64,000 bases of DNA from Astropecten irregularis (taxonomy: Eukaryota > Echinodermata > Asteroidea > Paxillosida > Astropectinidae): assembly GCA_963971285.1 (NCBI GenBank), contig OZ020250.1, positions 10,834,499 through 10,898,498 of the forward strand. The letters run 5' to 3'. The notes below the pieces were generated by a model. It worked only from the letters and a program-made list of their open reading frames with translations. It was not told the DNA's origin and ran no database searches. Positions 2,622 through 59,249 of the stretch are shown here, piece by piece (position 1 is the first letter of the stretch; each line of letters starts with the position of its first letter). The position numbers were made by a program, and so were the translations under genes.

Positions 2622-2787
2622 CTACAAGACACCAATTGATTGTTTCCTGAAGGTTCCTTACACACACCATTTCTACAGTAGTTGCCATTTAAATAGCAAT
2701 TAGAAAGGCAGCGGCTTTGGTAGGTGTAACAGATCATGGATGGGGGACAAGGAAGCAGGAAACAAGGATTTACTTCGATGAACATGC
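2622..2787 (-). CDS. mucin-like gene exon, EGF-like cysteine-rich
   Basis: Internal 166-bp exon. The acceptor reads TCATCTCTAG and the donor GTAAGAAAAA. It encodes about 54 residues with eight cysteines in an EGF-like spacing (C-x4-C-x5-C-x6-C-x3-C-x6-C-x4-C-x11-C), including YCRNGVCKEPSG. It starts with two bases of a codon, which fits the single base left by the exon at 4257-4100. It ends with two bases of a codon, so at least one more exon lies downstream outside the window. EGF modules beside a SEA domain are typical of membrane-tethered mucins and matrix proteoglycans. The module is probably extracellular. Confidence 0.82.
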
Positions 2788-2876
2788 CTAGAGATGACAA
2801 GGAATGCAATCGCTTCAACATCAATTCCTACATACTGTAAATTTATTTTATGTGTATGTCATATAAATGGAACAAG

Positions 2877-3614
2877 AGCCCTGTCCGCACTGGATTTTTT
2901 TGGGGCAAAGTATAAACCGAGACGTTGGGTACTTTACCCATTTTAAGTTCAGTGCGGACGTCTCAGGAAGTCTACCTCTCAGTTACTAATTTGCCCGAGC
3001 TGTGCGGGTATTTCTACCGGCCAACTTCTGCCCGAATAGAATGCCCGAGACACTTTACCCGAGACAAAAAGTCCAGTGCGGACAGTGTGAGTCGGGTACC
3101 CTCATGAGTCTAGTATTGTCAGCTCGGTAATTCCTCCGCGTGTGCACGGTTAAGTTACCCGAGTCAAAAGTCCAAGTGCGGACACCGGTAATATTTGCCC
3201 ATTTTTATTTAGCTTTAATTGTGTATTTTTTTAGCCCTGTCCGCACTGGACTTTTTTTTCCGGGGATTTAACCGAGCCGATGGGTAAATGAAAAATGGGC
3301 AAATATTACCGGTGTCCGCACTTGGACTTTTGACTCAGGTAACTTAACCGTGCACGCACGGAAGAATTACCGAGCTGACAATACAAGCCCCATGCGGATA
3401 CCCGACTCAAACTGTCCGCACTGGACTTTTCGTCTCGGGTAAAGTGTCTCGGGTATTCTACCCGGGCAGAAGTTGGCCGGTAGAAATACCCGCGCGGCTC
3501 ACGCAAAGTAACTGAGGGGTAGACTTCCTGAGACGTTCGCACTGGACTTAAAATGGATAAAGTACCCAGCGTCTCGGTTACTTTGCCCCAAAAAAGTCCA
3601 GTGCGGACAGGGCT
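2877..3614. mobile_element. foldback element with CCGCACTGGAC repeats
   Basis: A long imperfect palindrome of about 738 bp. The ends read AGCCCTGTCCGCACTGGA at the left and the inverse at the right. Arms of roughly 330 bp pair along their length, around a short centre near 3211-3287. The words GTCCGCACTGGAC or its inverse occur about nine times at mirrored positions. A terminal-like copy, AGCCCTGTCCGCACTGGACT, also sits near the centre (3233-3252). There is no transposase. It is probably a non-autonomous foldback DNA transposon, and may come from two inverted copies. Confidence 0.75.
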
Positions 3615-4099
3615 TTATAATCTTCTGCTTATATTTGTACAATGTACATCACTGAAGCTCAATGATGGACTTCCAAGTAGACTCCTGACTTTTCAACATA
3701 AACCTTACAACTAGAATGGGAGTGATAAAGAAGCAAATAATGAAATTGACCTTTGGCAAACAGGAGCCACATGTTTACGCATCAGGGCTACCAATTCAGG
3801 GTCTTGAGTAAAGGCAAACAGATGTGACCCTTCCTTACTCAACATCTAAAGACATCAATTGGTGGAGGTATCATTCATGGCAGAAATGCCAGAGCAAAGT
3901 TTATTGTGTGGCAAATCTTACTGTCTATGATATGTCTAGCTGTCTGATGATTGAGTGACTGATCACAAGATGAAGGACAAAAAAAAAACAAGGAATGTAA
4001 AACATGTCCCAATATAATAACTCTTCAGAGGTACAAAACTGGGTTATTGGTACTTTTATTGTTCTCATTGTTTGTTTAAACTGACTGCAACCTACTCAC
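3615..4099. other. intron sequence, nothing recognised
   Basis: Part of the 1.3-kb intron between the exons at 4257-4100 and 2787-2622. It is AT-rich and has no repeat structure I can define. Confidence 0.5.
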
Positions 4100-4257
4100 C
4101 ATTAGGTGCAAGAGCTAAAAGTTCTGAGACGCTCAAGTTCCCAAGTCCTCCAGTACTGTGCACTTCATTAAATAGCAGGCCTATCCAGGCAGACTTAGTA
4201 GAACCATCTAAGGTTTCCGATGCGAAAAGTTGAATCTCAGGTACCACACTGCCTTGT
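4100..4257 (-). CDS. mucin-like gene exon, SEA domain C-terminal half
   Basis: Internal 158-bp exon. The acceptor is AACAACTCCAG and the donor GGTGAGTAGG. It begins with one codon base and ends with one. Joined in phase to the 65-bp exon it reads QGSVVPEIQLFA, then a stretch ending GLGNLSVSELLALAPNG. GSVV matches the SEA autoproteolysis motif, where the chain cleaves between Gly and Ser on folding, as known for MUC1-type SEA domains. The later LGNLSVS segment fits the last strand of the fold. The site implies a two-part, non-covalently held glycoprotein at the cell surface; that is inference from the family. Confidence 0.88.
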
Positions 4258-4383
4258 CTGGAGTTGTTGATATGAAAAAAAACCAAATGATTCTAAAATG
4301 AATATTCCAGCAGTGTGGGGGCGCATGATCCCATACACTGATTGATTGATATTCCAATTTATATTATCGATGTGTATCGATGA

Positions 4384-4555
4384 AATGAACCGTGGGATAT
4401 GGCGGTGTGTGCGTAGTTTCATGGCTTCGGACTGCCAAAAGAACAAAGATAATTGACTATTTGGGACACCACCAACGTAGGGCTGGATAGCTCAGTTGGT
4501 AGAGCACCTGTACGGTATTCAGGAGGTCACCGGAAGTTATTTGATGATTATATAT
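4384..4555 (+). repeat. tRNA-derived SINE, truncated at the B box
   Basis: Carries a Pol III A-box region TAGCTCAGTTGGTAGAGC (4489-4506) and the following GTACGGTATTCAGGAGGTCA. It then jumps to AAGTTATTTGATGATTAT, losing the B box and the tail junction. Upstream sequence (AACAAAGATAATTGACTATT) matches the copy at 1625-1795. Confidence 0.65.
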
Positions 4556-4583
4556 TAAAAAGCCGAATCCTCTTTGAGTAATC

Positions 4584-5325: not shown

Positions 5326-5334
5326 GTTCCTTAG

Positions 5335-6542: not shown

Positions 6543-6749
6543 CTAGTAACTCCGCCATGGCCAGTCCCAAGCCCGGATGAGAAAGGAGGAGGGTTGGGCG
6601 TGGGGCTAGCATCCCCACCCCGTAAAACCCACTACGCTACAGAAACCACAACAAGGAAAACTCTGCTTGGCAGAGGCAGAGAAGCTTTCCAGACTTCTGG
6701 ACATATGACAGTGGGGGACTAAAGCCGAAAGGACGTCTCCAGCTCGACA

Positions 6750-7667
6750 GTGGACATCCTGACACCCCAAAAACACATCCGAGTTGGATGTTGGAATGTA
6801 AGAACTTTATTCCAAGCTGGGAAACTAGCACAAACTATAAGAGAAATGAATGAATATAACTTATGCTTACTTGGAATTACAGAAGCAAGATGGACCAAAA
6901 CAGGGAAACAGAGACTCAAGACTGGGGAGATCATCATCTGGTCAGGCAGACAAGATGACAATCATCAGGAGGGGGTTGCTCTCATCATTAGCAGGAAACG
7001 CACACAAACCTTATTGCAGTGGAAACCAATTAATGAGCGGTTACTGTACATAAGATTAAACTCAAAATATTCAAAACTATCCATACTAGAGGTGTATGCA
7101 CCCATTGAAAATGCAGATGAGGAAGACAAGGATCAGTTCTACAGCAAGCTTCAGGCAGCACTGGAGGACATCCCTAGGCATGACATCCTTCTCTTGATGA
7201 AGGACTTCAATGCAAGAGTTGGTAGCAACAATGTAAGCAGGGAGAAAACTATGGGACGACACGGGTTAGGCAACACCACCAACAATAGCGAAAGACTCAT
7301 TGATATCTGTGAACAAAATGACCTGGCTATCGGTGGTACTCTATTCGCACACAAGAACATACATAAACTGACCTGGACCTCACCAGATGGGAAAACACAA
7401 AGCCAAATCGACCACATCATCATAAACAATAAGTGGAAGCGCTCCCTACAAGATGTACGAGTGATGCGTAACTCTGACGTTGGAAGTGACCACAATCTGT
7501 TAGTTGGGAAACTCCTCCTCAAGTTGAGGAGAACCAGAATTGGGGGACCAAGAAATTGTCGCTATGACGTTGCAAAACTCAAGGACCCAGAAGAGAGGAA
7601 TGAGTTCAGCTTAGCCCTGAAGAACAGATTTAGCATCCTCAAAGATGAAGCAGAACTAAAGTCATAA
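6750..7667 (+). pseudogene. LINE apurinic-type endonuclease ORF
   Basis: 305-codon open frame. Early motif VGCWNVRTLFQAGK (catalytic Asn), then GITEARW (catalytic Glu), VYAPIENADEEDK, KDFNARVG (usually GDFNARVG, here Lys for Gly), QIDHIIINNKWK and SDHNLLVG (catalytic Asp-His). The domain nicks target DNA to prime reverse transcription. A stop at 7665 separates it from the RT, which in related elements is the same polyprotein, so this is a broken copy. It lies within the LINE at 6543-9714. Confidence 0.8.
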
Positions 7668-9020
7668 TCATTATCTATCAATGAATTCAATAAAGCAATG
7701 AACCAAGCAGCAAAAGAAACAATAGGATATATAGGAAAAGTGTTAAATCTGAGTGGATCTCTGGTAACACATGGAAGGTCATAGAGGAAAGAAAATCAAT
7801 AAAGAAGAAGGTCCTGGATTTTAAGTCACCCCGGCTGAAAGAGAGGTTTACAGGGCAGTATAGAGACAGAGAAGTGAAGAGAGCAACAAGAAGTGACAAA
7901 CGGAAGTACATAGAGTGACTTGCTAATGAAGCTGAGGTCGCTGCTCAACAGAAGGACATGAAGACAGTGTACAAGATCACCAGGAAACTAAAGGGGGACC
8001 GGGGACACACTCAGGATATACCAGTGAGGGCTGCAGATGGCACAACCATCACAGAAGAGCGGGAAAAGCTGGAAAGATGGAAAGAACACTTTCAGAAGAT
8101 CCTGAAACAGCCAGTCCAACCAGCTCTCGCCGACATCCCAGAAGCAGAAGAGGACCTCAACATCAACATGGGAGCAATTACAATCGGGGAGGTAAAAAAA
8201 GCCATCCGCAAACTGAAGAATGGAAAAGCTCAAGGAGAGGATGGCATGTGTCCTGAAATGTTGAAAGCAGAGGACCAAGAAACACCTCGCTTTCTCCAGA
8301 GCATCCTGCAGGAAATATGGGATAATGGGACAGCACCTGATGACTGGTACACAGGAGTTATTGTCAAGCTACCAAAGAAAGGAGATCTGGGGGATTGCAA
8401 CAACTGGAGAGGCATCACTCGAGGCATCACTCTACTATCACTCACCAGTAAAATCTTCAGCCACATCATACTTCAATGCATCAAAACAGCAGTGGACACC
8501 ATACTACGACAAGAACAAGCGGGCTTCAGAAAGAGGAAATCCTGCATAGACCACATCTTTGTACTACGCCAGATACTAGAACAGTCCAACGAATGGAACA
8601 GCACACTGTTCATAGTATTCGTGGACTTCACAAAGGCCTTCGATAGTCTACACCGTGACTCCCTTTGGAAGATCCTCAGACACTAAGGCATTCCTAAAAA
8701 AATGGTCGACATCATCCAGTCACTCTAGAAGAATTTTGAGTGCCGTTTTATCCACAACAACGAGTTGACTGAACCTTTTAAGGTGGACACCGGAGTCAAG
8801 CAGGGATGCACTTTCTCACCCATACTCTTCTCCTTGGCTATTTACAGGGTTATGAGGCGTATCACCCAAGGAAAGCGTCAAGGCATCCAATGGACGGTTT
8901 CACAGCAGTACTGGAAGATCTCGATTATGCAGACGACATAAGTCTGCTCTCACACCGATACCAAGATGCCCAGTCAAAGACAGAGAGCCTTTATCAGTCA
9001 GCCAGTGCCATTGGTCTATT
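7668..9020 (+). pseudogene. LINE reverse transcriptase, fragmented
   Basis: The longest clean part is 7958-8686 (242 codons). It contains KLKNGKAQGEDGMCPEML, PKKGDLGDCNNWRGIT, EQAGFRKRKSCIDHI and VDFTKAFDSLHRDSLW, which are the fingers and first catalytic Asp region. A stop follows at 8684. Downstream frames give GVKQGCTFSPILFSL and DLDYADDISLL (8932-8950, the YADD catalytic motif). These frame changes inactivate the protein. Confidence 0.8.
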
Positions 9021-9713: not shown

Positions 9714-9714
9714 G

Positions 9715-17518: not shown

Positions 17519-18288
17519 ACTAGAGTTTATGGCTGTTGAAAACAGCACATAAGGCTTTTCCGCATATGATATAAATTGCTTATCAATAAGAATGTTGTCA
17601 CTAAGAACGACCTTCCCTCATTGCCTTTTGGTAAAAGAATTATGATCCTATCTCTTACCACTTGTGAATGAGGAGCTACTTCCTGTTTGACTGGAAGTAG
17701 AAGTCACAGAGGTCAACCGATTTGTCACAAAGAAAGGCCTTGCCTAACATTCACTTTTAGTGAAATAATCATGATCCTAGCCCTTACAACTTTTAAATGA
17801 GGAGCTACTTCCTGTTTGACCGGAAGTAGAGGTCACAGGGGTCAACCAATGTATCACAAAGAAAGACCTTGCCTAACATTCACTTTTGGTGAAAGAATCA
17901 TGATCCTAGCTCTTACCACTTTTAAATGAGGAGCTACTTCCTGTTTGACCGGAAGTAGAGGTCACAGAGGTCAAGCAATGTTTCACAAAGAAAGACCCTG
18001 CCTAACAATCACTTTTGGTGAAAGAATCAATATCTCAAACCGTTGATATTTTGTTGATTTTTAAAGATTTTGATTATTAAATTCAAATTGCTTGTCACAT
18101 GACACCTGATGACGTCATAATGACGAAAAGTTTCGGGAGACAACTACCCTATATGGACCTCCTTCAAACCAAGTTTGGCTAAAATCGGCTGTTTAAAGAT
18201 GCCAAAAGTGGGGTCTACAATGTCCCTGCACTTTGTCTATAGGAATTTTGCCGACAAGAAGAGGAAGAAGAGGAAGAAAAAAAATAAT
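17519..18288 (+). mobile_element. double-hairpin element, CTTTTCC family, outer copy
   Basis: Starts ACTAGAGTTTATGG with a 5' hairpin GCTGTT-GAA-AACAGC, then AAGGCTTTTCCGC. Three 129-bp tandem units follow, then TGATGACGTCA-containing sequence and a GA-rich tract. A second copy begins at 18289 inside that tract. A hairpin GGCTTTTCGC.../GCGAAAAAGCC at 19274-19298, after the inner copy, is a good candidate for the displaced 3' end. Confidence 0.6.
17612..18020 (+). repeat. 129-bp tandem repeats, 3 units
   Basis: The word CTACTTCCTGTTTGACC starts at 17676, 17805 and 17934, a spacing of 129 bp. Units share TCACAAAGAAAG, GAATCATGATCCTAGC and GGAAGTAGAGGTCACAG. Confidence 0.85.
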
Positions 18289-19255
18289 AGAGATTGTGTC
18301 TGTTGAAAACAGAACACAAGGCTTTTCCGTTTCCGCTTTTATTGAAAAAAAATTGTCTTAACCACATACGCACAAAGACAGTTGAATATGATCTTATGTT
18401 TTATACCTTTGAAGTGTGCACCTTTAATCATAAACTCACATGAATTGGTCATATTTGTGTCACAAAGAAAGACCTTGCCTAACACTGACTTTTGACGAAA
18501 GAATCCTGATCCTAGCTCTGACCACTATTAAATGAGGAGCTACTTCCTGTTTGACCGGAAGTAGAGGTCACAGAGGTCAAGTAATGTGTCACAATGAAAG
18601 ACCTTACCTAACATTCACTTTTGGTGAAAGAATCATGATTATAGCTCTTACCACTTTTAAATGAGGAACTACTTCCTGTTTGACCGGAAGTAGAGGTCAC
18701 AGAGGTCAAGTAATGTGTCACAAATGAAAGACCTTGCCTAACAATTGTCTATTGGTGAAAGAATCATGACCATAGCTCTGACCACTTTTAAATGAGGAGC
18801 TACTTCCTGTTTGACCGGAAGTAGAGGTCACAGAGGTCAAGTAATGTGTCACAATGAAAGACCTTACCTAACATTCACTTTTGGTGAAAGAATCATGATT
18901 ATAGCTCTTACCACTTTTAAATGAGGAGCTACTTCCTGTTTGACCAGAAGTAGAGGTCACAGAGGTCAAGCAATGTTTCATAAAGAAAGACCCTGCCTAA
19001 CAATCACTTTTGGTGAAAGAATCAACCTAAGATCTCAAACCGTTGATTTTTTGTTGATTTTTAAAGATTTTGATTTTTAAATTCAAATCGCTGGTCACAT
19101 GAGACCTGATGACGTCATGATGATGATTAAAAATGACCAAAGTGCCGCGGACAAAATTTGTGTACAAAGTCAATACAAATTGAGGAGAAGAAGAAGAAGA
19201 AGAAAAAAAACAGAACAAAAACAATACCTTTTCCGATTGAAATCGGAAAAGCCAA
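18289..19255 (+). mobile_element. double-hairpin element, CTTTTCC family, inner copy
   Basis: Starts AGAGATTGTGTCTGTTGAAA (5' hairpin with GAA loop, stem TGTGTCTGTT against AACAGAACACA with one bulge), then AGGCTTTTCCG. Four 129-bp units follow, then a GA-rich tract and the 3' hairpin CTTTTCCGATT/AATCGGAAAAG at 19229-19251. It closely matches the copy at 48998-49894. No protein is encoded. Confidence 0.7.
18450..18995 (+). repeat. 129-bp tandem repeats, 4 units
   Basis: CTACTTCCTGTTTGACC or a close variant starts at 18540, 18669, 18800 and 18929 (spacing 129, 131, 129). They are the same units as at 17612-18020 and 49180-49590. Confidence 0.85.
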
Positions 19256-24179: not shown

Positions 24180-24990
24180 CTACCACATTGGCGGCAGGTT
24201 CGGCAAAGGTGTCATATCTAATTCCGCCCGCGGAGCTTCCGTACGAAAGCGATTGATTTGGAATCTAGAAAGTGAATCAGCGATAATATTTTGAACGCCG
24301 GGCACGTGTATTGCCCTGAAAAAAATATTGTGCTGCAGACATCAACACACAAATAACCGAACCAAGTGCATAATCATATCGCAGCGGGAAGACTGAGTGT
24401 TAATGATGTGCACCACAGCTGTGTTGTCGCAGTGAAATTGGACCTTGCGATTTTGAAGCAGATTGCCCACAGCAACTTCCAATGGGTAAAACTCTAGGAA
24501 TGCAATTGAAGCTGACAACTCTAACAATTCCGGTGCCCACTGAAAATAACCTCCAAAACCAATGCTAGCAGCGGCATCGGTAAACAATTCAATGCTGTAA
24601 TTGGATTGCCATTGAAGGTGAAGAAAGGGTGAAACGTCATTAAAATTGTCTAAAAATTCAAGCCACATCATCAAGTTTTTTGGTTTTTTTGTGCACCAGC
24701 CGAGATGCGGACCTTATGATGAGGTTTGCGCAAACTTCTGGTAAGCCCAATTAAACGCTGAGTGAACGCTATACCGGGAGCTACCGCCATACAGACGAAG
24801 TTGAGGCTCCCTATCAGGGACTGAATTTCCTTCAGCAACATTTTACGCTTTCCCAAGATCAAATTGATTTGCTGTCGCAGTGCCTCAACCTTACTAGCAG
24901 GCAAGATAAGCTGTTGCGAGTCTATTTCGACCCCTGAATAAGTGATAACCTGGCTTTGACCCATTTTCATTCTGCAATAGCCACTCTCAA
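24180..24990 (-). pseudogene. DIRS-like reverse transcriptase C-terminus and RNase H
   Basis: Two frames, 24970-24671 and 24674-24190. The first has SGVEIDSQQLILPASKVEAL, IQSLIGSLNFV and FTQRLIGLTR, typical of the DIRS RT thumb. The second has NYSIELFTDAAASIGFGGYF (RNase H Asp), EFYPLEVAVGNLL, FHCDNTAVVHIINTQSSR and, further on, FRAIHVPGVQNIIADSLSRF. DIRS elements pair an RT/RNase H with a tyrosine recombinase. Here the RNase H piece lies downstream of a recombinase piece, the reverse of the normal order, so this is probably a separate fragment. Confidence 0.82.
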
Positions 24991-24994
24991 TTGG

Positions 24995-25508
24995 TCACAA
25001 ACATGCCGGAATGTCTGCAACAAAGCAGCACAACCGGCTTAAAAGGGAAGACAAAACCTGAAAGATGTCCCAAGTGGGCACTAGTCGGCGGGACAGAGGA
25101 TGTTCGACAAAAATGCCCTTTATCAGCTGACCCAAAGCTCGGTTGTCAGAGAGAGTAGAGCCATCCGAGAAGCCTGAATGATGGCTGAACGATAGTTCTT
25201 GATCGTACCAGTAGCTATAGGCCTGACTAAAAAAGGTACAGCAAAAAGTCACCTATTGCTCCCACAGAAGTATGGGAGGGACGGTGAGAGTGCTGCCCAC
25301 ACCATTTGTAAGAAATGGTGTAGTCGGCTGTTGTACACTGCTCTTGTTGACGCTCTGCGGCTACGTGCAGCTCGTTCTGAAAGGCCTGCTGAGCAGAAGG
25401 ATAGCGTGACAATACCCAACACATCAGGTGCAGATTCTCCGGAGCCGGATGGACAAATCCCGACCACAGCTGCGACAGAATGTCCGGTCTTCGGGGACGG
25501 ATCACAGG
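24995..25508 (-). pseudogene. DIRS-like tyrosine recombinase, N-terminal and middle part
   Basis: Frames 25505-25227 (RRPDILSQLWSGFVHPAPEN, SVGAIGDFLLYLF) and 25252-24995 (HHSGFSDGSTLSDNRALGQL, IKGIFVEHPLSRRLVPTWDI). These match the region between the DIRS post-RNase H linker and the recombinase catalytic core. The core with its Arg/His/Tyr residues is not present. A frameshift separates the two pieces. Confidence 0.75.
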
Positions 25509-25890
25509 TCAGAGAACCAGCAGCTTGGCTAACCTGGGGAACCATGGCTGGCGAGGCCAAAAGGGGGCTATGAGGAGGATCTTGCAATTCTCCCTTTCCA
25601 CCTTGGCTAAGACCCCGGAGATGAGGAACAGGGGTGGGAAGGTGTAGGCCAGAAGCCCGTCCCAAGGGAAGGCCAGTGCATCCGACCTCCACACATGCGG
25701 GTTGAATGACCTCGTGCAGTAGACGGGCAACTGATTGTTCAGTGCTGTTGCAAAGAGGTCGACGTAAGGACAATCGATGAGATGGAAAATTGACTGTACC
25801 ACCATACGGAAACAGCGTAGTCTTATGAACCTGTTGAGAGACTTCAGGTTCAAAATCGGATGCCAAATCCGGGCTCTTTCTTGGCAACCA
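25509..25890 (-). pseudogene. DIRS-like RT start fused to the post-RNase H segment
   Basis: Frame 25943-25509. After a degraded KKEPGFG comes ILNLKSLNRFIRLRCFRM, the start of the RT. It is followed almost at once by DCPYVDLFATALNNQLPVYC, PHVWRSDALAFPWDGLLAY and LIAPFWPRQPWFP, which lie after RNase H in DIRS polyproteins. The RT palm and RNase H between them have been deleted near 25770. Confidence 0.78.
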
Positions 25891-37462: not shown

Positions 37463-38610
37463 TCAGTGGTGGTCATTCTGAAGTCGGATGGGGAGCCAGG
37501 TGCTCCTCTGTCTCCAATGCTTCGATAGAAGCATGTGGTCCAGTTTGTGACTCAACCGGCGGTGATGGAGATAGCTGGGGGTCTCCACTGCTATGCCGCT
37601 GTGATGGGGTTGGACTTCAGGAACCGATGGAGATAGCAGGGGGGTCTCCACTGCTATGCTGCTGTGGTGGGGTTGGACTTCAGGAACCGATGGAGATAGC
37701 TGGGGGGTCTCCACTGCTATGCTGCTGTGGTGGGGTTGGACTTCAGGAACCGATGGAGATAGCTGGGGGGTCTCCACTGCTATGCTGCTGTGGTGGGGCT
37801 GGACTTCAGGAACCGATGGAGATAGCTGGGGGGTCTCCACTGCTTTGCTGCTGTGGTGGGGCTGGACTTCAGGAACCGATGGAGGTAGCTGGGGGGTTTC
37901 CACTGCTATGCTGCTGTGATGGGGTTGGACTTCAGGAACCGATGGAGATATAGCTGGGGGGTCTCCACTGCTTTGCTGCTGTGGTGAGGCTGGACTTCAG
38001 GAACCAATGGAGGTAGCTGGGGGGTCTCCACTGCTATGCTGCTGTGATGGGGTTGGACTTCAGGAACCGATGGAGATAGCTGGGGGGTCTCCACTGCTTT
38101 GCTGCTGTGATGGGGCTGGACTGCAGGCGAGATGACATCAGGACTAAGTGGCGGTATCAATACAGGCACTTCACACTCCTTGGCATTTCCTATTATCAAG
38201 GCCACATCCGACAACGGTTGAGAGTCGTCATTGTCGTCATCTTGCCCGTCCTCATCCTGCGCTGCTGGCAGGAGCTCTGGAGTAGTCTCAACCTCTGGCA
38301 CTCTCTCCCCTGTGTCCAGTAGCTCTGTCCTGGTCATGAACTTTGTTGGTCCAGTACCATCCGCAAGTTGGACTTCATACACATTGGGTTGTGGTTGTGC
38401 TATCACCTTATAGGGTACTGTCTGCCAATAATTACCTATCTTGTTCCGCCCTGGAATGTGGCTCCAAAGTAGGACTCTGGTACCTAAGCCAATCCCTTTA
38501 TCATTAGACTTGGCGTTGCCCCTCTCACACCTAGACGTTGCTGCGTTCTGCATGGTTTGGGCGGCGTGGTCTGCTGCCTTTCTCAATTTCTGTTGATGTG
38601 CTTCAACCCA
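37463..38610 (-). pseudogene. gypsy integrase C-terminus with 21-residue repeat tail
   Basis: Frame 38586-37906 starts after a frameshift near 38600-38625. It gives a GLGTRVLLWSHIPGRNKIGN segment, YKVIAQPQPNVYEVQLADGT and ELLDTGERVPEVETTPELL, then an acidic linker EDGQDDDNDDSQ. Tandem 21-residue units VQPHHSSxAVETPQLSPSVPE follow. An extra TA near 37951 shifts the frame into 37903-37463, where the units continue. A base lost in a G-run near 37578 ends them. Confidence 0.75.
37562..38130 (-). repeat. 63-bp minisatellite, about nine units
   Basis: Unit GGACTTCAGGAACCGATGGA, then GATAGCTGGGGGGTCTCCAC and TGCTATGCTGCTGTGGTGGG. The length is 63 bp, divisible by three, so it encodes a 21-residue protein repeat at the end of the gypsy polyprotein. 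Units differ by a few bases. Confidence 0.9.
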
Positions 38611-39020
38611 TGATCTGCATCTGGTTCCCTGCTCTCACAGGTCCCAAGCAGAAGGGCAATCGGTAACATCGGATTCCGTCCCAAGAACACGTAAAATGGG
38701 GAGAGTCCAGTAGAAGAGTGTGGCGTACAGTTGTACATGAACGTCAGCTCTTGAAGATGCTTGGGCCAACATCTCTTCTGGTCAGGGGGTAAGGTACGAA
38801 GTAGATTATGCAAAGTGCGATTGAATCTCTCGCATTGCCCGTTCCCCTGGGGATGGTATGCCGTGGTTCTGCTCTTTGTAACTCCATAGACTGCACACAG
38901 CTCCTTCACGATCTGTGACTCGAAATTTCTCCCTTGATCACTGTGGATACGGCGCGGGACTCCGTACTTCTGGAACCACTCCGAAACCAATACCTTTGCT
39001 ACGGTTGTGGCCTTCTGGTC
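38583..39020 (-). pseudogene. gypsy integrase core beyond the nonsense codon
   Basis: Same frame as the long Pol frame. After the TGA at 39021-39023 it continues WFQKYGVPRRIHSDQG (second catalytic Asp), TAYHPQGNGQCERFNRTLHN (third catalytic Glu) and FMYNCTPHSSTGLSPFYVFL. The stop probably arose by one C-to-T change in a CGA codon. A frameshift near 38600-38625 then ends this frame at HINRN. Confidence 0.85.
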
Positions 39021-42000
39021 TCAGCATGGGACTGCCTGAGTGAACTTACTAAATACATCCGTCATAACCAAGACGTTTTCCCTTCCATCTGTTGCCTTCT
39101 CTAGTAGAGTAAAGTCAATGGCCAGGATGTCCAGTGGTTGCTCTGCCATCATCTTGCCTATGAAGGGCCTCACCTTAGGAGTCGGCGGCTTAGATACGGT
39201 GCATCTATCACACCCCTTCAACCATCTGTCCACATCTGCGGCCATTCCAGGCCAGTAACACCTCTTCTGCAGCAGTGCAAGTGTCCGATCACGCCCCTGA
39301 TGGCCTGCTTGGTTATGGAGAGCAGCCAGCATTGTTGGATGAAGTTCCTCTGGGAGCAGCAGTTGACAGAAATCACCCTCTACCGAATCATGAAATTTGA
39401 TGTAGAGTACTCCATCCTTGGTCATAACTCTACCCCACCTCCTAACCAAGGCCTTCATACCATTTGAAGCGTGCCTTAACTGTGAACTCCTTGGCTTTGT
39501 TCCATACCTCCACATCTGAGAAAACCTGGCAAGTAGTGGATCCCTCTGCTGCAGTTTCGCAAGCTCATCTGATGAATATCCCGGCATTGTGGGTACAGCA
39601 GTTTCAACCTCTGCGGCGGTGACCTGTCTCACTGTCACCTTCTTCACCTCTATTTGGTTGACCTCATGAAGTGCTGTTGATTGTGTGACCTCTTGCACCA
39701 TCTCCTCAGCATGAATCTTCTGCCGACTCAAGGCATCTGCATTGGCATTCGCCCTGCCAGATCTGTACTTTATCTGGAAATTGAACTGAGATAGCTGGCT
39801 GGCCCACCGCATCTCGGTTGCACCAAGTTTCGCCGTCTTGAGGTAGGAAAGTGGATTGTTGTCGGTGAACACAACAAATTCTGCTCCGATCAGGTACTCC
39901 CGAAACTTCTCGGTAATGGCCCATTTTAATGCCAGTAACTCCAACTTCATGGAACTATAGTTGTCCATATTCTTCTCGGCTGGCCTCAAGCTCCGACTCG
40001 CGTACGCAATGACTACGCGTCCACCCTCCTGATCCTGAGATAGAACTGCACCCAAACCATCCATCGATGCATCTGTTTCAACAACCAAAGGCCTTGTGAA
40101 ATCCGGGTATCCTAGCACTGGTGGCGATGTCAGCCTCCGCTTCAATTCCTCAAACGCAACAGTACATTCAGGGCTCCATCGTTGTAGGAATGCTTGTTGC
40201 TGTTGAGGTGATGGACGATATTGCTTCCTTCCTTTCAGGCATCCTTCTTTGGATAGAAGAGCATGTAGTGGAGCAGCCACTTTACTGAACTGCTTGACGA
40301 AGCGCCTATAGTAGCCTGCCAGACCAAGAAATGAGCGAAGCTCCCTCTCACTTCTAGGGCGTGGCCAGTTGTTTATGGCCTTACTTTTCTCTGGATCAGT
40401 CGCAATCCCGCTTGACGACACCACATGGCCCAGATAGTGGCATTCCTTCCGGAAGAGGTGACATTTGCTGGGCTTTATCTTCAATCCATGCTTTTGCAGC
40501 CTCTGCAAGACAACCTCCAGCCTCTCAAGATGCTCTTCGTGGGACTTGGAGAATACCAAGATGTCATCAAGGTATAGAAGGAGAGTGCTGAAGTTTAAGT
40601 CTCCCATGACGGATTCCATCAACCTCTGAAAGGTGGCTGGAGCATTGCTGAGGCCAAAAGGCATTCTGAGGTATTCGAACAACCCTCCAGTGCCAGCTCT
40701 GAATGCTGCCTTCTGAATATCACTCTCATCAATGGCAACTTGATGGTAACCCTGAGCAAGATCAATGGAACTAAACACAGTTGCCCCTTTTAGAGAGTCA
40801 AGGGCCTCCTCGATGCGGGGTAGGGGGTATGCGTCCTTGTGGGTCTTCTCATTAAGCATCCTGTAGTCAACACAAAGACGAAGACTGCCATCTTTCTTGC
40901 GCACAATGACTACTGGTGCCGCATATGGGCTTGAAGATGGTCTGATTATCTCCTGATCAAGAAGCTTCTGGAGATGTGTCTTCACTTCATTCATTTGATG
41001 TGGGGGAACACGACGATGTGGAACACACACCGGACGGTCATCAGTTGTGGGGATCTTATGCTTCACTGTGTCAGTGTATCCCAGGTCACCTTCACTATGA
41101 CAAAACACATCCTGGTACTTTTGAAGGAGCTTCATCAATTGAGTCTTCACAGGACTGCTCTCTGCTCCTTCCAGATCTATCTCAAAAGGTAACTGGATAT
41201 CCTCCTCTTGTGATCCAGCTGCACCCGTCATGTTGCAGGAGGCCTCCTTAATGCCATCACAATCCACGTGTATGCCATCATCTGTGACCTGGACTGAGGA
41301 AAGGTGGGAGTGGACCACATCTACATCTGCAGCAACTCCAATTCTGCTCCTAGGCTGCAACCAAACATCGTCATCCCCGATGTTTGCCACTGTCACTCGA
41401 GTAACCCCTCTCTCAGCCCTGGTGCATGTGTCGACAACTGCGATGCCCTTAGGTAGGTTAATACCAGATCCATCATGGATGACCTGGATCACAATGTCTC
41501 CATGTTGTGCTGCTTCCTGCCGAACAGTACAGGTGACGACGCGGGTGCAGTTTGCGGGGATGCAAACTGGATCTCGTCCTCCCACTTTGACGAAGGAAGA
41601 TCTGCTTGTCGTTTTATTCTCTAGGTCGTAGGGGAACAACGCCTCGACCCAAGTTCTATTGCTGGTCTCCTCTAAACTCTCCAAATAATTCTCTCCATGC
41701 TTTTCCCTTAGTGCAGCATGAAGTTCTCGCAGGACATTTGACCCAAGCAAACCGACATCTCTGTTATGGTTAGGTGTAGACTGCGCCTTTGAAACGAGGG
41801 CCCCAACTTGACCAATTCGCACCCCAAGCAGGTCGATGTCAAACTCAGCGTAGCCCACGTAGGGAATCTCGATGCCGTTCGCTCCATATACCTTCAGCCA
41901 CTTGGTGAAGTCATGACGAAGAGAGCCACTGTCAGTCAGCCGATGGTAAATGGTCTCGGGCAGGACAGTCACCTCGCTTCCAGTATCAAGGACGAATGGC

Positions 42001-42104
42001 ACTTCATGCCCGCAGATTGTTACTGTTGCCTCTGGACTCTTGGTGACTGCCCTGCCAAACACCTCCTCTCTGGTCTGTCTGCTTGAGCCATGCCCACCCT
42101 CCAA
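39021..42104 (-). pseudogene. gypsy Pol: protease, RT, RNase H, integrase start (1027 codons)
   Basis: Long clean frame. Protease VLDTGSEVTVLP (Asp40); RT KKDGSLRLCVDYRMLN (from 403), SSIDLAQGYHQ (Asp448), PFGLSNAPATFQ and LLYLDDILVFS (YLDD 511-514); RNase H ETDASMDG (Asp678), MKLELLAL (Glu722), FTDNNPL (Asp748) and NADALSR (Asp790). Integrase zinc residues are His930, His935, Cys965 and Cys968, and its first catalytic Asp is 997. It stops prematurely within integrase. Gag lies upstream with no long gap, so Pol may be expressed by frameshifting or as a fusion; the junction near 42110 shows no clear slippery site to me. Confidence 0.9.
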
Positions 42105-42115
42105 AGTTTGGCTCC

Positions 42116-43127
42116 TTACAATGGAGGGCTGGCATTTGGGGAGTCTTCGGGGGTCTTTGTCTGCTGAACTGGGGAAGCCTGAGTGGCACTCGTACTCCTA
42201 GACGACTGATGAGTAGGCTGTGCAGGGGGTCTTGGTCGCCCTCCATTGCCTCTGAACGGGCACACCCTCGCTATGTGACCAACACAACCACAGGCAAAGC
42301 ACGTCACACCAACCCTGCTAGTACCCGCTCCTGCCATCATAGAGCCCATCAGTTGAGAGACTTGCTGACAGAGTTGACTCACTGCATCCTGGGTCGCCTT
42401 TAACTGGCTCGATTGTTGTTCCAGCTGTGTCTGAATCGCTGGATCCACTGAGGGCTTCGCGGTGGCTGCCCTGGCCTCTGCTGCCTGCAGATCTGGGCTG
42501 TTGTCCCACAAAAAGAACAGTGTTGCGGAGATCTGTGAATGTGATGGGGGAATTCTCCAAGATATACCGCCGAACCTCCCTCCTCAAAGACGCATCTGCC
42601 AAACCTGCTGCAAACTTCTCGCAGAGTATGGCATCCTTATCTTGAAGAAGAGGGGCATTTGTAGGGGATGCCAGCTCAACCTTCCTGAGGAGTTTCAGCA
42701 GTTGCAGGGAATACTCCTGCAGGGTTTCCCCTCCGCGCTGCCTCCTTGCGTAGAACTCCTCCCATCTGGTTGACGGAGTCTCATGACATGCGTACGCCTT
42801 CAACACATGTTCGATGATTTTCTCTGGGTTGCTCCTCTCCGACGGCGGGCAAAGACGAACCTCGTCACGTGCAGGGCTAGTGAGGTGATCAATCACCAGC
42901 TGCGCTCCCTCAGCATCGGACAGGTCCTTGGTAAGGCGGCGCATATCTTCTGCCCACTCCGTCAATTCCGGGTCTCTGTCTGTCTTGGGACTCCCTGCGA
43001 GCTTTGTCCCGCGCTCTCTTGGAACGACCACTATTGCTGCCTTGCTTCCAGCGCCTCCTGCCTTCTTCTCCTCCATCTCCGCCAGTCGACTGGCTAACAC
43101 CTTCAACTGCTCCTGCAGCTCCTCCAT
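42116..43127 (-). pseudogene. gypsy Gag with one frameshift
   Basis: Starts at ATG 43127. The N-terminal coiled-coil stretch MEELQEQLKVLASRLAEMEE is followed by the capsid-like region WAEDMRRLTKDLSDAEGAQL, ARDEVRLCPPSERSNPEKI and LQEYSLQLLKLLRKVELAS. A one-base change in an A-run (T-run on the coding strand) near 42510-42515 moves the reading to frame 42511-42116, which carries the zinc knuckle CFACGCVGHIARVC and a proline-rich end. The knuckle binds the element RNA. Confidence 0.85.
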
Positions 43128-44685: not shown

Positions 44686-44898
44686 ATGGTCGGGATTTCG
44701 TTGATAGAGCGACAGCGGATCAAGGCAGCTATGTGGGTGTCCGGGCAGCTCTTTTTAGAGACAGCACTGCCTGCCCCAGAAGGGGAAGCCCCTAGAAAAG
44801 GTGGGGTAAAGAAAGCTCGCTCTTCTCAAACCTGGTTGGCTTACCGCGGTCAACGGGTCTCCATTCAAGCGGGAAGAACACAAAGAAATCAAAGATGA
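44686..44898 (+). CDS. short LINE leader ORF overlapping the main ORF
   Basis: 70 codons from ATG at 44686: MVGISLIERQRIKAAMWVSG at the start and a basic end SIQAGRTQRNQR. Its TGA stop overlaps the ATG of the endonuclease frame as ATGA (44895-44898). I see no RNA-binding motif, so it may be a remnant of ORF1 or a regulatory upstream frame. The exact overlap raises the chance of termination-reinitiation. It may not be translated at all. Confidence 0.4.
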   Translation: MVGISLIERQRIKAAMWVSGQLFLETALPAPEGEAPRKGGVKKARSSQTWLAYRGQRVSIQAGRTQRNQR

Positions 44899-47282
44899 AA
44901 ATTGCTACATGGAATGTAAGAACCATGCTTGAGAAGAAAGATAGACCAGAGAGGAGAACTGCACTTATAGTAAAGGAACTTACTAGGTACTCTATTGACA
45001 TAGCAGCACTTCAAGAAACAAGACTACAAGGTCAAGGACAGATAAGAGAGAAGACCCACACCGTATTCTGGTGTGGCAGATCTGATGAAAGACGGGAGGC
45101 TGGTGTAGCATTTGCAATCACCAACATTATTGCGGATAAGCTTACATCACTTCCGAAAGGCCAGTCTGAGAGGCTTATGCAGCTTAGGTTACCTATCGGG
45201 AACAAGCGCTTCTTGACTATGATAAATGTTTATGCCCCAACAATGACATATCCAGAAGAAGTGAAAGAAGAATTTTATGAAACACTTTCCAGGTCAGTGT
45301 TAGATGTTCCAAATGCAGAAAAACTGATTCTGTTGGGTGATTTTAATGCAAGAGTTGGCAAGGACTGTGCATCATACCAGAGAACACTTGGCAAGTTCGG
45401 GAAGGGGAACAAGAATTCTAACGGTGACCTTCTGATCAGTTTTTGCACACAGCATCATCTCAGCATTACTAACACCTTTTTCAACCAACCTGATATACAC
45501 TACTATACTTGGATGCACCCAAGGTCCAAGCACTTCCATCTTTTGGACTATGTGATCACCCGTTCAGAGGATAAAAAGGAAGTACTGGTGACAAGAGCTA
45601 TGAGGGGTGCAGAATGCTCAACAGACCACTATCTTGTAAGATCCATAGTCCGCCTTTCCGTCACAACACCAAGACGCAAACTTGCATCTTCTACTTCTAA
45701 AAAGATAGATATCCAGAAACTGGCTAAAGAACACCACCAAAGTGCCCTTGCACAAGCAATTGACAGAGTACTACAGAAACAGGAAATGCAGGAACCACTC
45801 AGCATTGAAGATACCTGGAGTGATCTAAAGGAAGCGGTGTCTTCAACATCTAGTAAGGTTCTCGGTCATCCAAAACGGAAAACACCAGACTGGTTCAGTG
45901 ACAATGAAGACAAAATTCAAGCACTTTTAGAGGAGAAACACAGGGCATACCTGTGTCATTTGAAGGAAAATACTGCCGCAAGCAAGGCTTATTTCTGCAA
46001 CATAAAAGCCAAGGTGCAAAAAGAAATCAGGAACATGAAAACCACCTGGTGGAGTATGAAAGCAGAAGAATTACAAATGCTTGCAGACAATAACGACTCA
46101 AAGGGACTCTTTTCAGCACTTAAGGTGATCTATGGCCCTTGCACAAACACAGTCTCGCCAGTGAAATCTGTTGATGGGTGCCAGTTGCTTACAGATATGG
46201 ACAGCATATCCAATCGCTGGAAAGAGCATTTCTACCAACTGCTAAACCAGGACGGAAATGTTGATGTCAACGCAACATGTCAGCTAACTGTCTGTTCAGC
46301 AAGAGAGGAACTAGATAATCCCATATCCTTTGAAGAGGTTGACAAAGCTCTAAAATCAACTAGAAATGGGAGAGCACCAGGTCAAGATGGTATAACAGCA
46401 GACGTCCTGAAACATGGTGGCCAGGAACTGAAGCGCCAACTCCTTCACCTGTATAACCTTTGTTGGCACAATGAAGATCTTCCTCAAGACTTCAAGGATG
46501 CCCTCATCGTTACCATCTACAAGAAAAGGGGTGACAGGTGTGAATGTGGAAACCATCGAGGAATATCTCTGCTATCACAATCAGGGAAAATATTTGCAAA
46601 GATCCTTTCAAATCGTCTTAAGACTGTCTCTGAGAATATACTACCAGAGAGCCAATGCGGATTCAGAACATCAAGGTCAACAGCTGACATGATCTTTACA
46701 CTCCGACAACTACAAGAAAAGGCAGTGGAACAAAACCAGCCTTTATACATAGTCTTTGTCGACTTCAGTAAGGCCTTTGATACAGTGGATAGGTCAACAC
46801 TATGGAAGGTCCTACACGCTTACGGTTGCCCAGAGAAATTTGTAAAAATGGTCAGACTACTCCATGACAATATGTCAGCTAGAGTGTCTATTGGTGGGGA
46901 TATCAGTGACTCCTTCCCAGTGAGTCACGGGGTGAAACAAGGCTGCGTGCTCGCACCATCGCTCTTTACATTGTACCTGGCTGCTGTGCTTGAAACCATG
47001 AGTGTCAACATGACCAAAGGTGTATACATCCGCACACGGTTGGATGGTAAATTGTTCAACCTGGCTCGTCTGAAATCATCAAGCAAGACTAGAGAGGTGT
47101 GTGTCAGAGAGCTGCTGTTTGCAGATGATTCGGCACTTGTAGCAACCGAACTGGATGTCATCCAAGAAATAGTTAACCGTTTCGCTGCAGCAGCCACTCA
47201 ATTTTGGATTGAAAATAAACACAACCAAAACAGAGTTACTACACCAGCAGTCACCACTGGAGCACAACCCGCAGCAACCTGA
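44895..47282 (+). pseudogene. LINE endonuclease and reverse transcriptase ORF
   Basis: 795 codons. Endonuclease: MKIATWNVRTM (Asn7), ALQETRLQ (Glu41), LLGDFNARVG (Asp149) and STDHYLVRS (Asp244, His245). RT: NGRAPGQDGITADVLKHG (491-508), NHRGISLLSQSGK, FVDFSKAFDTVDRSTLW (Asp623), GVKQGCVLAPSLF and LLFADDSALVA (FADD 742-745). After residue 770 the frame is wrong (ends VTTGAQPAAT). The proper continuation lies one frame over from 47206, so a one-base insertion in TTTT at 47202-47205 separates this from the C-terminal part. Every catalytic residue is preserved. Confidence 0.88.
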
Positions 47283-48997: not shown

Positions 48998-49894
48998 ACT
49001 AGAGATTGTGTCTGTTGAAAACAGAACACAAGGCTTTCCCATTTCCGCTTTTATTTAAAAAATTGTCATAACCTTATACACACAAAGACAGTTGATTAAG
49101 ATCTCATATTTCATACCTTTGAAGTGTGCACCTTTAATAATAAACTCACATAAATTGGTCATATTTGTGTCACAAAGAAAGACCTTGCCTAACATTGACT
49201 TTTGGCGAAAGAATCATGATCATAGCTCTTACCACTTTTAAATCAGGAGATACTTCCTGTTTGACCGGAAGTAGAGGTCACAGAGGTCAAGCAATTTGTC
49301 ACAAATGAAGGACCTTCCCTAACATTGTCTGTTAGTGAAAATATCATAATCCTAGCTCTTATCACTTTTAAATGAGGAGCTACTTCCTGTTTGACCTTAA
49401 GTAGAGGTCACAGAGGTCAAGCAACGTGTCACAAAGAAGGACCTTGCCTAACATTCACTTTTGGTGGAAGAATCATGATCCTAGCTCGTACCACTTTTAA
49501 ATAAGGAGCTACTTCCTGTTTGACCGGAAGTAGAGGTCACAGAGGTCAAGCAAAGTGTCACAAATGAAAGACATTGCCTAACATAGTCTATTGGTGAAAG
49601 AATCAACTTAATATTTCAAACCGTTGCTTTTTTGTCGATTTTTAAAGATTTTCATTATTAAATTCAAATCGCTTAATTAATTGTCACATGACACCTGATG
49701 ACGTCATGATGACGTAAATGTTGCGCATACAACTACCCTACAGGGACTTTGTTTTGACCAAGTTTGGTTAAAATTGGCAGTTTGAAAGTGGCCAAAGTGG
49801 CTCCGACAAAATGGTCAAAAGTCTCAAAACGACAAGAAAAAGAAGAACAAATCTGAACAAAAACAATACCTTTTCCGTTGAACACGGAAATGCC
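48998..49894 (+). mobile_element. double-hairpin element, CTTTTCC family, third copy
   Basis: Starts ACTAGAGATTGTGTCTGTTG (5' hairpin), then AGGCTTTCCC, three 129-bp units, TGATGACGTCATGATGACG, and a GA-rich tract. It ends with the hairpin CCTTTTCCGTTGAACACGGA at about 49869-49894. It matches 18289-19255 along its whole length. About 0.9 kb, non-coding. Confidence 0.72.
49180..49590 (+). repeat. 129-bp tandem repeats, 3 units
   Basis: The TACTTCCTGTTTGACC word recurs at 49250, 49380 and 49509. Same unit family as at 17.6 and 18.5 kb. Confidence 0.85.
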
Positions 49895-54950: not shown

Positions 54951-54959
54951 CAGCAGTTA

Positions 54960-56225: not shown

Positions 56226-56283
56226 ATGTTGCCTCTTCAGGTTTGGAACAGCAGTCCTGGCTTCGGCTCAGCTTTGAAGTATA

Positions 56284-56408: not shown

Positions 56409-56502
56409 ACTGTTCCCTCCCGATGGTCTCCAGAGCTCTCTCTCTTCTTCCCACCCGTTGGAGTTCGCCTCAGCCATTCACTCCTCACCTTATCTACAAA
56501 GA

Positions 56503-56705
56503 GACATGCTTCAGTGGTTTTGGGGAGTATTTATTGGGCTGAAGGTGGGCTCATTTACATTTTCATAAATGGAGGAACCTTGCATTTTTCTTAAAGGGTG
56601 GATCAGACCGTATTGCGTGGGACAATAATACAAAGTGAGTCTCTCCTCCTAGGCCTCATTTAATTCAAATTATATGGCAGGTAAGGACCCTTACATAATT
56701 TGAAA
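56503..56705 (+). repeat. DIRS right inverted terminal repeat
   Basis: Core 56503-56641 is the inverse of 51619-51757. The outer edge to about 56705 is complemented in the internal region. Confidence 0.88.
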
Positions 56706-56869
56706 TTGTGCCACTCTTCTCAGAAATTCTTGTTTTACAAATCTTGCAAATGGCACTGTGCTGCTTATTCCATTTGATACAAAACTACCGATGATCTTCA
56801 TACTCCGATTGTATGATTTATCAGAAATCGCCAAAATAATCAACCGTGAAATTTGTAACCAAAATGAAA
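56706..56869. other. short spacer, nothing recognised
   Basis: Sequence between the DIRS end and the GAGTAC repeats, with no clear signal. Confidence 0.4.
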
Positions 56870-57010
56870 TTTGCACTAAATAATTTGAGTACATGAAATT
56901 GAGTACAGGCAAAGTACATTTTTTTTTTAGTACTTATAATCGAGTACGGGCAAAGTTCATTTTATTTTTGAGTTTTGTTTATCGAGTATGGATAGAGTAC
57001 ATGTAGGAGT
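56870..57010. repeat. GAGTAC-rich element, right piece next to DIRS
   Basis: TTGAGTACATGAAATTGAGT, then ATCGAGTACGGGCAAAG and ATCGAGTATGGATAGAGTAC. Similar in wording to 48114-48264. Confidence 0.55.
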
Positions 57011-57906
57011 GCTCACTGCCTGGGGGTGCGGAAATATGGTGCAGAACATCACAGGTCGATGTGGGATAAGCATAAAGATAATCTAGAGTATCCCAGGGTG
57101 TCCGGTGGGTGGTTGATGGTCTGGCTGGGCCTTGCCTTTCTTCAGGGACCGCCCACAGCAGATCGTGTTCTGGGCTTCTTGACTGCGGACCCCTTGCCAG
57201 TTGATACTGGCGGGGTCATGGGGGTGGAAGATGACGTGTCCCCCCGCGATCCCATCTGGGCCATATCAGGGTGAGGCAGTTCTGTAACGAGAGACTGACC
57301 GCGACCCAAAGGTGAATGCCAAATGGCACTGAGGTATCGGTCCGGAGGACCTGAGCTCAACGAGAATAGAGGGCACACTCCAGTTGATAAAACATAGTGT
57401 ATTGTCTAAGGACACTAGGCAAATATGCCAATGCAGATGCTATTTGGGTGAGATTAACGTAGTAGACATTACATTTACATAAATAGCATGTGGTTATGCA
57501 ACTGGGCCAACGAAACAAAATCTAAATTTTGACCGAAAAAAAAATGGCTGTTTACTTTCCATGTTGACATATAAAGTCTAAAGAATATGACTGTGGAATG
57601 GTTTAATCCACAAAGCACACCCTCACTTGTACCAGGCAAGTTGTGGTTCAAGGGAAAAATATGTTGGAATAGCTCTCTGGTCAACATTTTGGCAAAGCGG
57701 GGAGAACTGGATGTAAACAATCAGACAGCCTGGTCTCACACTCGAACACTATGATGGAGAAACTGAGTTGGACAGACTGGCAGCAAATTCACCATGAAAT
57801 TTGTAGAGAAGACCTACAATTAATTCACATTCTAATAAAATCTTTAATTCCTAATTCTTAGATAGATTAATTTATGTATATCATACTCATCTACTTTAAT
57901 TCTTAC
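57011..57906. other. intron sequence, unidentified
   Basis: The GC-richer first half (57020-57400) has no known domain in any frame; the second half is AT-rich. It lies just 3' of the mucin exon donor on the minus strand. Confidence 0.4.
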
Positions 57907-59249
57907 CAATGATTATTTGTTCAGTTTTACTTCCTCCATTAGAGAACCTGGTTACAGAGCTTGGGGATTCCATTGTAGAGTCAGTTGTTGGCCCATCTTC
58001 AGCGATGACCTCAGTTGATAATTTTGTTTCTTGTGCACTATCCAAGGTATTTAGTGATATTGACAACAATGTTGTTGAAAGACCTATGTTGACAGCATCA
58101 GTTGAATCTATTGTGGACAATGCTGTTGCATCTTGTGTCACTGTTTGAGTTGATGAATTAATAATGATCTCAGGAGTTGGAGTATTTGTTGATGACTCAG
58201 TTGAAGCGAAGCCTGTACTGGTGTCATCATGTGTTTGTGAGGGAGATGTGTCAATTTGTGGGGAAGAGTAAACAACTGATGTTGTCAGAAATCGATTGGG
58301 TGGTGGTTTTTCTTTATTAGAGGCAGGTGTGGACATGTCCATTAAAAAAGTTGTTGAATCACTATCTGATGATACAGAAGTAGAGGTGGATAGGGATGGG
58401 GTTGAATGAGATGTGTATGCTGATCCAATGTTTACTTTTGTAAACTCATTAATTTCCATTGTAGGTGTCCTAGCAGGTGATGTTGCAGATGAAAATATGT
58501 CATTAGAGAATGTAGTGAATCCCTCAGTTGATGCAGGTGAACTAGCTCTACCTGAAAATGAGACAATGGGTTGATGTATATCTGATGTCACAGGTAGAGT
58601 AGACAGATGCGAGATATGAGTTGAAAGTTGACCTGATGTTTCTGATACTGATGTGTGTGTAGTAGAGTCAATGTAAGATGAGACTGAGGTTAAATCATTT
58701 AATAGTTTGGTAATCAGGGATGAATCAGCCACTGTTGCATTATTTTGTGGTAACTCTTCTGGAGTGCTTTCTTGCGAGACTGTTGATGTTTCGGATGGGA
58801 AAGTTTTCTCTATCTGGGGTTTAGTTTCATATTTGGTAGTTGTTTTCTCATTAATTTGTCCTGATGTTAAGACAAAAGATCCTGCCTTTGTACTATCACC
58901 TGTAAAGAGCAAGTGTGTGGTAAGCTCAAAGTTAGTTGATGTTTCATCTAATAGTGTTATTTTTGTTGCAGTCTTTGTAAAGCTTGCTGATGTTGGACTT
59001 GCAGTAGACAGGGTGGATAGATTTATGTTCCTTACAGATACAGATTCTAGCAGATTTCCAGTTGAATTTAATGGGACAGATTCTGTTGTTGACATGTCCA
59101 GTACCATCTTAAGAAAAGAGGTTGTTCTGAGGGCCATTTTCTGCAAGGTATTCTGCCTATGTGCAGTGCCAGGAAGCTGACCCCCAATCATCAAAGTAGA
59201 AGATTTAATTCCCATCCAAAAGATATTAAATGACTCCACAACTGTAGCT
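57907..59249 (-). CDS. mucin-like gene exon, Ser/Thr-rich
   Basis: Internal 1343-bp exon. The acceptor is TTTTGTATTTCAG at the upstream side and the donor GGTAAGAATT at 57906. It encodes about 447 residues. Roughly 35-40 percent by eye are Ser or Thr, there is no cysteine, and there are several N-x-S/T sites (NST, NAT, NLS, NSS). Examples are STLSTASPTSASFTKTATK and SLSTSTSVSSDSDSTTF. Such regions carry dense O-glycans in mucins. It starts with one codon base and ends with one, which the SEA exon at 50211 completes to Glu. A long open frame without stops in such simple sequence, plus matched splice phase, supports a real exon. Upstream exons lie outside the window or are not recognised. Confidence 0.88.

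Follow-up and report, generated by a model that had tools for sequence, protein, structure and literature searches.

A mucin-like SEA/EGF membrane-protein gene predicted across a retroelement-rich stretch of the sea star Astropecten irregularis

Can a single gene be recognized in a long stretch of animal DNA in which only a few small and widely scattered pieces seem to code for protein? The question is raised by a 64,000-base stretch of the sea star Astropecten irregularis (GenBank assembly GCA_963971285.1, contig OZ020250.1), here called the window, which lies at C14:10834499-10898498 in a 475.7-Mb genome of 168 contigs. An earlier note on these letters had proposed one minus-strand, mucin-type gene with a SEA and an EGF-like domain that spans most of the window in five exons. 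Here, we report that a single minus-strand gene for a mucin-like SEA/EGF membrane protein very probably covers most of the window, and that it probably extends past the window's start by at least 14.5 kb, as far as a predicted transmembrane (TM) exon, so that the proposal is borne out for a gene that is probably larger than claimed. The observations behind this are the exons and their phases, a SEA match, the spacing of EGF cysteines (Cys), a hydrophobic helix, and a pair of paralogous genes elsewhere in this genome, on contigs C8 and C14, that carry the same cassette of exons.

Exons of the gene and its SEA domain

The five exons, one of them rich in serine and threonine (Ser/Thr), were found again from the sequence with the phases given in the earlier note, and the outer coordinates 2622 and 59249 agree exactly (Table 1). 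Phases and coordinates are given for the minus strand, and negative positions lead away from the first base of the window, in the direction of lower C14 coordinates. The start phase of the Ser/Thr exon is ambiguous, with a second, overlapping AG. Scored with a generic splice matrix over 224 kb around the gene, all five donors and four of the five acceptors lie in the best 5.2% of GT or AG sites, and the acceptor of SEA3 is weak (top 19% of AG sites). Together the exons occupy 1848 of 56,628 bases (3.3%), and the remaining sequence is almost all intron, as had been claimed.

Table 1. Predicted exons of the window gene, its paralogs, and retroelements in its introns.
Feature	Position	Strand	Description
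Ser/Thr exon	59249-57907	-	1343 nt, about 447 codons, ends +1; acceptor ttgtatttcag, donor gtaagaat
Exon SEA1	50211-50096	-	116 nt, +2 to 0; N-terminal part of SEA domain
Exon SEA2	17142-17078	-	65 nt, 0 to +2; middle part of SEA as far as cleavage loop
Exon SEA3	4257-4100	-	158 nt, +1 to +1; GSVVP loop and C-terminal half of SEA
EGF exon	2787-2622	-	166 nt, +2 to +2; four extra Cys, then EGF-like Cys 1-4
Predicted exon 6	C14:10833519-10833580 (-918 to -979)	-	62 nt; EGF Cys 5 and 6, C-x8-C
Predicted exon 7	C14:10820025-10820142 (-14356 to -14473)	-	118 nt; transmembrane helix with basic tail, LLGLIGAMFIIFAVSFVALLYRRKRKQRL
Paralog C8	C8:24882640-24891500		third family member; HYR frames before SEA cassette, GSTEA loop
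Paralog C14	C14:10164720-10168975		same strand as window gene, about 0.67 Mb away; SEA-EGF-TM, GSIIT loop
Ty3/Gypsy-type retroelement frames	38586..42197	-	in 33-kb SEA1-SEA2 intron; RVT_1 135.8 bits, RNase H, integrase, protease
Non-LTR retroelement	44796..47279	+	in SEA1-SEA2 intron; RVT_1 102.7 bits, Exo_endo_phos 39.7 bits
Non-LTR retroelement fragments	6723..8683	+	in 12.8-kb SEA2-SEA3 intron; Exo_endo_phos 24.8 bits, RVT_1 37.5

The earlier note had proposed a comparison of the joined 112 residues with the Pfam SEA family (PF01390), which gave 30.5 bits (E 4.3e-7) and thus exceeds the cut-off of 26.4; a 188-residue join reached 28.8 bits. Nine control sequences were scored in the same way, including six decoy second exons taken from the profile runners-up, not strictly the top six. 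SEA1 alone reached 19.6 bits, most of the joined score, and the join minus SEA2 reached 17.2 bits, while SEA2 and SEA3 joined without SEA1 matched no Pfam family. With the decoys in second place the scores were 26.5, 20.5, 20.5, 19.7, 17.9, and 17.0 bits, so that the proposed join beats the best decoy by only 4 bits. Taken exon by exon, no SEA domain was recovered for SEA3 among solved structures, nor for SEA3, the EGF exon, or the Ser/Thr exon in Pfam. By itself, Pfam argues strongly for SEA1 and modestly for the other predicted exons. What is lacking in Pfam comes from the paralogs and from other profiles, which support the whole join.

When 1676 phase-compatible candidates were ranked without coordinates, SEA2 came first under the home-made SEA profile used to find it, one row of which had been entered by hand (25.2 versus 23.3 bits). 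It was also first under two profiles that hold no letters of the window, made from paralogs C8 and C14 (28.4 versus 25.7 bits) and from MUC1 and ADGRF1 (31.2 versus 28.3 bits), and under a profile of all four (48.1 versus 40.0 bits, with a runner-up that overlaps SEA2); these three profiles are not independent, as the third repeats the first two and MUC1 and ADGRF1 were chosen because the join matches them. Compared with solved structures, the joined SEA domain had MUC1 as its top match, weakly (E 0.024) and with an alignment that crosses SEA2; MUC1 is absent from the home-made profile that picked this exon. A residue-pattern scan aimed at SEA2 returned 194 loose candidates, and SEA2 was not among them. 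Broader searches gave little: a SEA family search of the own genome found no match and was equally silent in control genomes, hence uninformative; the public protein collection yielded 50 candidates for a 167-residue join, none at E 10 or better, and 4955 for an alignment of the three paralogous genes, none at E 1 or better; and the three membrane-type matches in NCBIfam were all below threshold.

Paralogs and the exons beyond the window

A search of the same genome at the protein level gave six matches, namely four exons of the window gene, the EGF exon of paralog C8 (E 0.003), and a place on contig C22 (E 2.4). The search with the C8 exon likewise returned six, including C8 itself, C14:10165231-10165398 (E 1.5e-8), and the window gene (E 3.2e-4). 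Around these EGF exons, whose cysteine pattern matches that of the window exon, lie paralogous genes of the same layout. The exons of C8 measure 113 nt (SEA1, +2/0), 59 (SEA2, 0/+2), 155 (SEA3, +1/+1), 163 (EGF, +2/+2), and 71 (EGF tail, +1/+1, but with spacing C-x13-C), followed by a TM exon (+2/+2) whose start is ambiguous between two AGs. Those of C14 measure 110, 56, 158, 166, 68 (tail, C-x8-C), and 115 nt (TM) with phases as in C8, against 116, 65, 158, 166, 62, and 118 nt in the window gene. Agreeing phases can be read in 18 of 18 exons of the three genes, of which six were found with a phase filter (SEA2, tail, and TM of the window gene, the C8 tail, and SEA1 and SEA2 of C14) and the others from unfiltered open frames, which were read by eye with prior knowledge of the layout to be expected.

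Through SEA and EGF, BLASTP aligns the window join with C8 at 26% identity (E 3e-16) and with C14 at 27% (E 6e-18), and Pfam SEA scores 30.6 bits in C8. A profile of the three genes, compared with solved structures, matched residues 158-215 of ADGRF1, which we take to be its SEA region (E 1.2e-4), as well as EGF chains (best E 0.0048; 1egf, E 0.0067) and the transmembrane protease chain 2e7v (E 0.024). The paralogs, with the same exon order and the same phases, are the deciding evidence by which the predicted SEA1-SEA2-SEA3-EGF cassette is supported. The remaining three matches of the C8 exon, two places on contig C10 and one on C29 (E 0.23 to 2.5), are weak, hold no fitting cysteine frame, and are not counted as members. 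The weak C22 match (C22:14244637-14244774) contains an EGF-like stretch by eye and is not counted as a member.

The EGF exon ends in phase +2 after the fourth EGF cysteine, and joining predicted exon 6 gives C-x6-C-x4-C-x11-C-x-C-x8-C, the six-cysteine spacing of EGF domains. This exon is the nearest of 12 candidates in a relaxed scan. Predicted exon 7, outside the window, supplies the transmembrane helix to be expected after SEA and EGF; in a scan for hydrophobic exons starting at +2 it is the nearest of 11 entries and the second in hydrophobicity. Tightened filters for the EGF tail and the TM exon gave one match each on the minus strand of the 224 kb, none on the plus strand, and none in 12 Markov shuffles, with thresholds that were tightened after the matches were already known.

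Predicted protein and alternative explanations

The product would be a type I membrane protein with a Ser/Thr-rich stalk, a SEA domain, a 10-cysteine segment that includes the EGF-like domain, and one TM helix that leads into a short basic cytoplasmic start. The long stalk is probably O-glycosylated, the SEA domain may act as a two-piece, force-sensitive joint by analogy with vertebrate membrane mucins, and the most likely job of such a protein would be at the cell surface or in the glycocalyx. The term mucin-type, as used in the earlier note, holds in part: the Ser/Thr-rich exon is mucin-like, but its Ser+Thr content averages 36%, with 38% in the core and no more than 45 in any 100 residues; Pro makes up about 5%, Cys is absent, and Tandem Repeats Finder lists no tandem repeat in 57907-59249. 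The norm for proline-, threonine-, and serine-rich (PTS) domains, as given in an excerpt, is more than 40% Ser+Thr with about 5% Pro (PMC9080433).

The published consensus for self-cleavage is GSxxV, in which x is V or I (PMC9478142). The SEA domain of most vertebrate SEA-type membrane mucins is described as cutting itself during maturation, with halves that remain joined, and as responding to mechanical tension (PMC9478142; PMC9578598). The letters GSVV, which the earlier note had called a cleavage motif, are present in the loop of the window gene, but its fifth residue is a proline. Because GSVVP departs from GSxxV in this way, self-cleavage of the SEA domain is uncertain, and its likelihood seems to fall somewhat short of even.

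Several points weigh against the gene as modelled. Its transcription and splicing are presumed from exons that were read from genomic DNA alone, and within 80 kb upstream no convincing signal-peptide exon was found, only two weak candidates. The first strict scan for the next exon (start at +1, with Cys) missed exon 6 and gave two candidates, neither of which was used. EGF_2 covers its whole profile (1-32) below the cut-off, with 11.7 bits for a 75-residue piece and 9.3 for a longer join, versus 22.1. The C14 join has no match to Pfam SEA, and among the single open frames of the 224 kb a profile made from the paralogs puts SEA1 on top at a weak E of 0.2 and SEA3 fifth (E 12), with SEA2 unlisted up to E 20. 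To these may be added the proline in the SEA loop, and the fact that no Ser/Thr-rich frame occurs in the stretches of paralogs C8 and C14 that were examined.

This last point touches the least supported step, the putative splice between the Ser/Thr exon and SEA1, for which the evidence is strand, order, phase (+1 to +2), and a distance of 7.7 kb. The SEA-EGF-TM cassette could be real and the Ser/Thr exon could belong to another gene or an alternative transcript, with another module, such as HYR, at the true N-terminus. Paralog C8 has just this layout, since HYR frames (52.6 and 65.1 bits), each with a phase-1 donor, stand directly before its SEA1 in place of a Ser/Thr exon. However, a home-made profile of two C8 repeats, run over frames of at least 25 codons in the 224 kb around the window gene, found nothing HYR-like, and the Ser/Thr exon is the next one upstream, has good splice sites and exactly the phase that SEA1 needs, and had no second copy in the genome search; Ser/Thr stalks are, moreover, usual beside SEA domains in membrane mucins. 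We therefore consider a foreign Ser/Thr exon unlikely. An origin of this exon from a transposon was rejected, as a nucleotide search of the whole genome, which skips very common words, returned only the exon itself at its own locus.

Still less likely, and distinctly improbable, is a decaying or silent copy, in which the exons persist in a retroelement-swollen gene that is no longer made. The introns of about 33 kb and 13 kb, rich in retroelement frames, would suit such a copy, as would the failure to find a first exon in a gene known from genomic DNA, yet each of the seven exons has an open frame and canonical GT/AG sites, and even the exon of 447 codons has stayed open. An alignment of splice-like signals that arose by chance in repeat-rich DNA was also considered, as SEA1 with a chosen decoy reaches 26.5 bits and single exons score weakly, but it is in practice refuted by collinear paralogs with the same phases and by the top position that SEA2 takes with profiles built from other sequences than the window; it was rejected as extremely improbable. 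One gene that joins the Ser/Thr-rich stalk to the SEA-EGF-TM cassette remains the preferred explanation.

The Ser/Thr exon ends in phase 1, as do the HYR frames of C8. Since either one can be spliced to the cassette across a phase-1 intron, the outer modules could have been exchanged at this shared position. That the three genes represent an echinoderm family with a fixed SEA-EGF-TM cassette flanked by phase-1 introns, exchangeable outer parts (the mucin-like Ser/Thr stalk here, HYR repeats in C8), and differing SEA loops (GSVVP, GSIIT, GSTEA) has, in our judgement, close to an even chance, if slightly under it. If true, the family would lend itself as a series in which to test when SEA self-cleavage was acquired or lost, and could be used to test whether mucin-like SEA membrane proteins predate the vertebrates.

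Related proteins, introns, and the mitochondrial contig

The gene is fairly ordinary in kind, as proteins with SEA and TM segments are already known in echinoderms. ADGRF1, the best match of the three-gene profile among solved structures, is a seven-helix receptor, whereas one helix was found here. The vertebrate SEA-type membrane mucins MUC13, the MUC3/12/17 cluster, and MUC1 have, in the excerpted accounts, a Ser/Thr-rich region, a SEA domain, mostly EGF, and a TM segment, as predicted here (PMC1552070; PMC9080433). The window gene differs from them in its lower Ser+Thr content, the lack of a tandem repeat, the GSVVP loop, the four extra cysteines before EGF, and its echinoderm host. Tree-based kinship to the SEA domain of mammalian mucins is named in part of one source as a criterion for membrane mucins (PMC1552070), and the matches of the present gene are pairwise and by profile. 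The sea urchin protein EBR1_5 is described in an excerpt as transmembrane with a SEA and seven HYR domains (PMC5521101), and by this description it resembles paralog C8, in which HYR precedes SEA, EGF, and TM, in contrast to the window gene with its Ser/Thr exon and no HYR found in the 224 kb. The mucin1-like protein of a sea anemone has a signal peptide, PTS-rich regions, SEA, and TM (PMC9080433), and thus by description shares the PTS-like region, SEA, and TM with the window gene; it differs in being cnidarian and in that EGF is not named in the available part of the account. Syndecans of a brittle star and a sea cucumber that contain SEA are, like the predicted product, echinoderm type I membrane proteins with Ser-rich stretches, whereas SEA appears in sea star syndecans only below threshold (PMC4336488; PMC10381214). 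By description these syndecans differ in their syndecan C-terminal part, and EGF is not mentioned in the excerpts (PMC4336488; PMC10381214). Neither the window gene nor an echinoderm gene of the Ser/Thr-SEA-EGF-TM type was among the literature matches listed, in a search that had most subscription journals outside its scope. An echinoderm mucin-like SEA/EGF gene with paralogs of readable exon layout offers a concrete deuterostome comparison.

The stretch from SEA1 to EGF measures 47.6 kb in the window gene, but 2.7 kb in paralog C8 and 3.7 kb in paralog C14. Its great length would be explained most simply by retroelements that filled the introns (Table 1), which also contain a further reverse-transcriptase frame that matches Pfam and many other open frames. 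A gene that is locally almost unreadable (3.3% coding) can thus be recovered through compact paralogs and intron phases.

Other repeats were seen in and around the introns. At 24342-26476 (minus strand), overlapping frames look DIRS/Ngaro-type by eye, and the two that were scanned have no Pfam match at E 0.001. A tandem repeat of 129-130 bases forms three arrays (17598-18029, 18456-19024, and 49167-49605) near both ends of the SEA1-SEA2 intron, and a 63-base tandem repeat (37564-38127, 8.9 copies) overlaps open frames beside the Gypsy-type element. In the SEA3-EGF intron, 2900-3614 holds by eye a palindrome-like element with similar stretches in both orientations. A tRNA-Thr-like sequence (59569-59641, plus strand) lies 320 bases upstream of the Ser/Thr exon, recurs near 4550-4460 and beside paralog C8, and looks like part of a tRNA-derived repeat family. 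About 430-3060 bases past the window's end (minus strand), a frame of 878 codons resembles by eye a gag of the BEL/Pao type.

Contig C168 (16,335 bp) of the same assembly is the mitochondrial genome, in which COX1 was confirmed and the other genes were named by eye. Open frames alone cannot separate the genetic codes 9, 5, and 4. In an alignment with the mammalian COX1 protein, all 5 AAA codons stand opposite Asn, all 4 AAG opposite Lys, and all 13 TGA opposite Trp, and none of the 7 AGA codons stands opposite Arg. This pattern fits the echinoderm mitochondrial code, a part of which is shared by flatworms, and the COX1 sequence itself has an echinoderm look. The genes ND1 and ND2 are read from the other strand than COX1, an arrangement that is a trait of sea stars.

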